From a virus: 20,888 nucleotides of DNA. The first letter of the stretch is position 1, and each line of letters begins with the position of its first letter. The position numbers and the translations under genes are program-made. The stretch is taken from the IMG/VR virus record IMGVR_UViG_3300033144_001296, positions 1-20,888 of that record; one strand, given 5' to 3'. Below are positions 1,333 to 1,445 of the stretch, piece by piece. The notes beneath the pieces were generated by a model. It was not told the DNA's origin. It worked only from the letters and a program-made list of their open reading frames with translations, and did no database searches.

Positions 1333-1445
1333 ATGATTAATTGAATTGTTATTACCATAACCGAGCTCTTAGAAGGAGTAGACGAGCCCCGTAAGGCTTG
1401 CAGAATAAATAAGAGAGACCCCCCCGACAGTCTCTCTTTTTTTTT
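1333..1445 (+). ncRNA. Structured small RNA or attenuator leader
   Basis: The segment between promoter P2 and a strong terminator has no usable reading frame but three foldable elements. Stem 1 pairs CTCTT (1366-1370) with AGGAG (1374-1378). Stem 2 pairs CGAGCC (1383-1388) with GGCTTG (1395-1400). The terminator stem is 1411-1419 with 1430-1438. CTCTTA (1366-1371) is also perfectly complementary to TAAGAG (1410-1415), so pairing these would break both stem 1 and the terminator, the logic of an attenuator. It may be a free sRNA of about 110 nt, a cis-acting leader for the genes from 1449 on, or both. No known RNA family was recognised; it is not tRNA-like. The exact 5' end is predicted from the promoter. 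Confidence 0.6.
1411..1445 (+). terminator. Intrinsic terminator after the small RNA
   Basis: A 9-bp perfect stem AAGAGAGAC / GTCTCTCTT (1411-1419 and 1430-1438) encloses a C-rich loop. It is followed by nine consecutive T bases (1437-1445). The next start codon is only three bases further on, so genes from 1449 depend on read-through, regulated antitermination or P1 transcripts. Confidence 0.88.

Follow-up and report, generated by a model that had tools for sequence, protein, structure and literature searches.

The stretch between positions 1332 and 1445 of the window, the 20,888-base viral contig analysed here, is with moderate confidence a stand-alone gene for a small RNA in a crAss-like phage; its predicted transcript has ~110 nt. 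This reading is based on promoter and terminator motifs that exceed chance expectation, on the lack of a meaningful open reading frame, and on analogous units that occupy the same slot in related contigs.

Genetic context of the candidate RNA gene

The window represents part of a crAss-like phage genome, perhaps of ~100 kb: its terminase and its major head protein have matches in PHROG families 6681 and 11589, and the annotated phages hit by the terminase belong to the Crassvirales (cr111_1 and crAss001 among them). The genes for the terminase, the portal and the head are all to the right of the candidate RNA. The features considered here, all on the + strand, are as follows:

747–778, + strand: promoter P1 of the upstream RNA (match to the TTTGG pattern)
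785–985, + strand: member of a conserved structured RNA family, with its core at 796–850 (blastn, patterns and covariance model)
1296–1327, + strand: promoter P2, of the Bacteroidota sigma-ABfr type, TTTGG-N19-TATATTTG (pattern match)
1332–1445, + strand: predicted small RNA of ~110–114 nt (ends placed a few nt past the -7 element and at the T run)
1348–1361, + strand: 5′ hairpin of 5 bp (predicted fold)
1365–1379, + strand: stem 1, 6 bp including two G-U pairs, -3.3 kcal/mol, containing CTCTTA at 1366–1371 (predicted fold)
1383–1400, + strand: stem 2, 6 bp, -7.1 kcal/mol (predicted fold)
1411–1445, + strand: intrinsic terminator, with a 9-bp stem (1411–1419/1430–1438), C7 in the loop and a T run (scan and fold)
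1449–1622, 1619–1837 and 1834–2061, + strand: three overlapping ORFan genes (ORF list)
2120–2148, + strand: second terminator, closing the three-gene unit 1449–2061 (terminator scan)
2184–2215, + strand: promoter P3 of the late operon (match to the TTTGG pattern)
2234–2623, + strand: first late gene (the "MEK" gene), opening the late operon, with a homologue in cr111_1

The cr111_1 homologue of the gene at 2234–2623 is annotated as "VpsT-like putative transcriptional regulator," and this gene served as the landmark for comparing the slot between phages. The three genes at 1449–2061 overlap by ATGA, and the first ATG lies 4 nt past the T run of the terminator. Their products had no homologue in the searches made, including that of the 1449 product against viral contigs and phage records, so this operon was of no help as an anchor for finding relatives. 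Further upstream, the small protein encoded at 986–1246 matched an ExoX-like C-terminal domain below threshold, at 23.8 bits for a cut-off of 26.5.

Promoter, terminator and predicted fold

An earlier note on this DNA, made from the letters alone, described a phage small RNA or attenuator of ~110 nt with its own promoter, a strong terminator, three stems and no coding frame. A scan with the pattern TTTGGN{17,20}TANNTTTG, i.e., TTTGG-N17..20-TAnnTTTG, retrieved four sites in the window, all of them intergenic and on the + strand, against 0.13 expected, and none of 100 shuffles reached four; the motif at 1296–1327 (P2) is one of these sites, in agreement with the proposed promoter. P2 fits the sigma-ABfr consensus given in PMC7366714, in which TTTG lies at -33 and TAnnTTTG at -7, and the middle and late genes of crAss001 are thought to be transcribed by the host RNA polymerase (PMC8375218). 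Likewise, the strong terminator is present as described, with the 9-bp stem followed by the T run to 1445 and a predicted stability of about -11 kcal/mol. From 1328 to 1448 the + strand also has no ATG frame of at least eight codons: the longest, from the ATG at 1333, has three codons, and a TTG at 1341 opens a frame of 17 residues. The stretch thus carries three marks of a stand-alone small RNA, namely a promoter of its own, an intrinsic terminator at its 3′ end and the lack of a coding frame.

The structural part of that description held only partially. All three hairpins are present in the predicted fold, and the complete RNA is more stable than its shuffles (z -2.9, reached by 1/200); however, the segment 1333–1410, without the terminator, folds no better than chance (z -1.3, 19/200 shuffles), so the excess in stability of the whole RNA is due to the terminator.

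The RNA has no Rfam 15 match at gathering score, which is consistent with the earlier failure to recognize a known family. Blastn found no homologue beyond the promoter in ~100 loci, the DNA at 950–2250 showed no similarity in phage records, searches with exact patterns retrieved nothing from IMG/VR or GTDB genomes, and the units in the same slot of relatives include no detectable homologue; near-identical records may be missing from the collections searched. Duplexes predicted with the start regions of the genes in the window were no better than shuffles (best z -1.8 of 26), nor was pairing with the upstream RNA. A type III toxin-antitoxin RNA, which comprises a promoter, a repeat RNA, a leaky terminator and a toxin gene, was also considered and rejected: there are no direct repeats in 1300–1450, and the proteins encoded downstream of the terminator have no PADLOC match.

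Analogous units in related phages

We collected ~100 loci by searches with the terminase and the landmark gene. In four contigs whose landmark protein is 58–59% identical to that of the window (and identical between L002 and L004), a promoter is followed by an RNA of ~80 nt and a strong terminator, and then by the late promoter and the landmark gene. These units, on the same strand as the landmark gene, are:

L002, 1267–1346: short RNA unit before the late promoter
L004, 4897–4975: short RNA unit before the late promoter
L005, 2378–2458: short RNA unit before the late promoter
L006, 3111–3194: short RNA unit before the late promoter, its own promoter recognized by eye, outside the pattern

Since the L002 and L004 units are nearly identical, the four represent three independent examples. 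All of them contain a 10-bp 5′ hairpin in which pairing is kept through changes from U-A to C-G and from A-U to G-U, and their predicted folds are much more stable than those of shuffles (z -7.0, -3.9, and -3.6); additionally, the units from L002, L004, and L006 share the conserved linker AATTTGCC.ACACTCA. They resemble the window in that a promoter, an RNA with a 5′ hairpin and a terminator are found upstream of the same late gene and on the same strand, but they differ from the window RNA in length (~80 vs. 114 nt) and in sequence, and R2, a covariance model built from the four RNAs, failed to recognize it (6.7 bits, E 8.3, with filters off) and found no further convincing members. By their position and architecture, the window RNA and these units would be analogous occupants of one slot.

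In two distant crAss-like contigs, a promoter, ~100 nt and a terminator also directly precede the landmark gene (L081, 1508–1605; L083, 235–320); the L081 unit contains a four-codon frame, ATGGAGAATTATTAA (MENY). Conversely, the close relatives L007, L009, L018, and L072 have no such unit beside the landmark gene, with L007 and L009 ending nearby. A count over all the loci gave 15 promoter-terminator units for 218 promoter-like sites, with several seemingly lying within genes, and such units are consequently uncommon, but not unique. L046 (1835–1987) and L077 (1609–1780) have promoter-to-terminator stretches of 150–170 nt without clear genes and with a common motif, GAGTGTCC; these are possible further RNAs. 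A small peptide that seemed conserved by eye in the relatives (MIDNNLPTL... in L004, MVDDNLPTL... in L006) was discarded, because it overlaps the terminator and is missing in L005, where the longest ATG frame has six codons, and in the window, where it has three.

In the four related contigs the next promoter follows the terminator with nothing in between, so that the unit there cannot be attenuating an intervening operon. The occurrence in the same slot of units without intervening genes makes a stand-alone small RNA more likely than an attenuator, and such an RNA is the simplest common reading of the window and of the units from its relatives.

The proposed termination switch and other interpretations

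The earlier note also proposed that CTCTTA (1366–1371) pairs either within stem 1 or with TAAGAG (1410–1415) in the terminator arm, in two mutually exclusive states that would switch termination on or off for the operon at 1449–2061. The two motifs are indeed complementary, but shuffling of the upstream part with its dinucleotides preserved produced a match of at least six Watson-Crick pairs to the terminator arm in 16% of the shuffles, and in 56% when G-U pairs were allowed, i.e., at chance level. Nor do the two states balance: the complete RNA has -25.8 kcal/mol in its terminator state against -15.6 for the forced alternative, ~10 kcal/mol apart, and the alternative pairing reaches a sizeable probability (~0.57) only as long as the 3′ arm of the terminator has not been made. 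Likewise, we found no conserved regulated genes behind the terminator, as there are none in the relatives with the unit and the three from the window are ORFans. The pairing at chance level, the one-sided energy, the lack of a homologue and the absence of an operon behind the terminators from the relatives leave the switch unsupported; in these models it would be possible in principle, with no positive evidence for one. The reading put forward in the earlier note, a small RNA or an attenuator, is thus supported in its first part, which agrees with the anatomy, the absence from Rfam and the analogous units from four related contigs, and unsupported as regards the termination switch.

We consider most probable, with the confidence stated above, that the RNA is a stand-alone product. 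The host RNA polymerase would start at P2 and stop at the intrinsic terminator at 1411–1445, yielding an RNA of ~110 nt with two or three hairpins that would most likely act in trans, through base pairing or protein binding. There is no other promoter of the TTTGG type before the genes at 1449–2061, so that some read-through is likely, and these genes probably rely on it; they would be fed by incomplete termination of the P2 or the P1 transcript, at a level set by the strength of the terminator and not by a dedicated switch. The gene order and the absence of another promoter are also what would be expected from an unregulated leader, in which P2 drives the genes at 1449–2061, a leaky terminator throttles their expression and the short RNA is a by-product. 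The chance-level stability of the stems upstream of the terminator agrees with this possibility; nevertheless, the relatives retain the promoter-RNA-terminator unit without such genes, and with compensating changes in the 5′ hairpin, and we place this interpretation second, as an unlikely one.

A true transcription attenuator acting in cis, in which the 1366–1371/1410–1415 pairing opens the terminator under some signal, comes third and is less likely still. The start of the genes 4 nt past the T run, with no other promoter of this type, and the transient pairing before the 3′ arm of the terminator is made would suit it, whereas the frequency of the pairing among shuffles, the preference of the complete RNA for the terminator, the lack of an ATG leader peptide longer than three codons, the failure to find homologues and the analogous units without genes before the next promoter all argue against it. 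Finally, the terminator might mainly end the P1 transcript (785–1246) and insulate the late region, with P2 being accidental or driving something else. The scans gave no other terminator between P1 and 1411, but the P2 motif well exceeds chance expectation and related phages repeat the combination of promoter and terminator, making this last explanation very improbable.

A conserved RNA family at positions 785–985

The 785–985 RNA, ~500 letters upstream of the candidate small RNA and in the same slot, is the more robust RNA of the two and a stronger lead, because covariation already shows that it functions as an RNA. With blastn it was identified in L026, at 82% over 77 nt, and in L088, and two pattern scans found the family in 10 and 31 viral contigs. 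It occurs in the window and in L026, L066, L088, L101–L105, L108, L110, and L119–L142, and has at least 26 distinct members; all those seen here are from viral contigs, most of them crAss-like. A crAss-like terminase was found in 15 of the 20 family contigs tested and the head protein in 12 of the 20, the others being possibly fragments.

The core of the family is ACTTCANTNNCCTAATAAA..TGGANGANTGTTGGANCAGG. Its columns 9 and 32, left open in both search patterns, form a pair that is A-U in 14 sequences, G-C in nine and C-G in two, and is not broken in any of the 25; none of 500 shuffles reached its covariation score. A further member, L066, was found by the covariance model (27 bits, E 0.001), and its CAGCC...GGCUG pairing, seen by eye, adds a change from U-A to C-G. 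Eight members share four or five hairpins with compensating changes, and the last hairpin has a G-rich loop (GGGAGAGGA-like). In three members (L140, L141, and L101) the RNA lies close to phage tRNA genes (tRNA-Thr, tRNA-Phe, and tRNA-Gln).

One strict pattern gave no match to the family in GTDB species genomes; however, many members have GGAACAGG instead of GGATCAGG, and the GGAACAGG variants are outside the reach of this pattern, so that absence from cells is not established. The covariance model found no match in five complete Asinivirinae phage records. We also considered that the 785–985 RNA might act in antitermination, allowing transcripts from P1 to continue beyond 1411, and rejected it: in L135 and L066 the family RNA directly precedes the late promoter and the landmark gene, and only the late promoter follows it. 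Neither the window nor 15 further loci gave an Rfam 15 match for the family, which is thus absent from that public library of RNA families.

Significance and comparison with known systems

crAss-like phages are among the most abundant human gut viruses, and their small RNAs are essentially undescribed in the open-access literature that we searched. If the 1332–1445 transcript exists, it would offer an easy entry point into the small RNAs of these phages. More speculatively, and with considerable doubt, the stretch preceding the late operon could be a dedicated slot for stand-alone phage RNAs, in which the 785–985 family and the fast-evolving 1332–1445 RNA would jointly take over host or late phage expression.

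The candidate resembles terminator/antiterminator attenuators in having, in the window, a terminator between a promoter and genes, but it differs from them in lacking a supported antiterminator, a known ligand domain or a leader peptide. In Bacteroides thetaiotaomicron, Northern blots confirmed 9 of 11 small-RNA candidates tested, eight of these nine combining a start site with an intrinsic terminator (PMC7366714). Although the window RNA is phage-borne, predicted from sequence and without a demonstrated sequence relation to the intergenic small RNAs from Bacteroides (e.g., GibS, of 145 nt; PMC7366714), it shares with them the promoter type, the intrinsic terminator, a similar length and an intergenic location.
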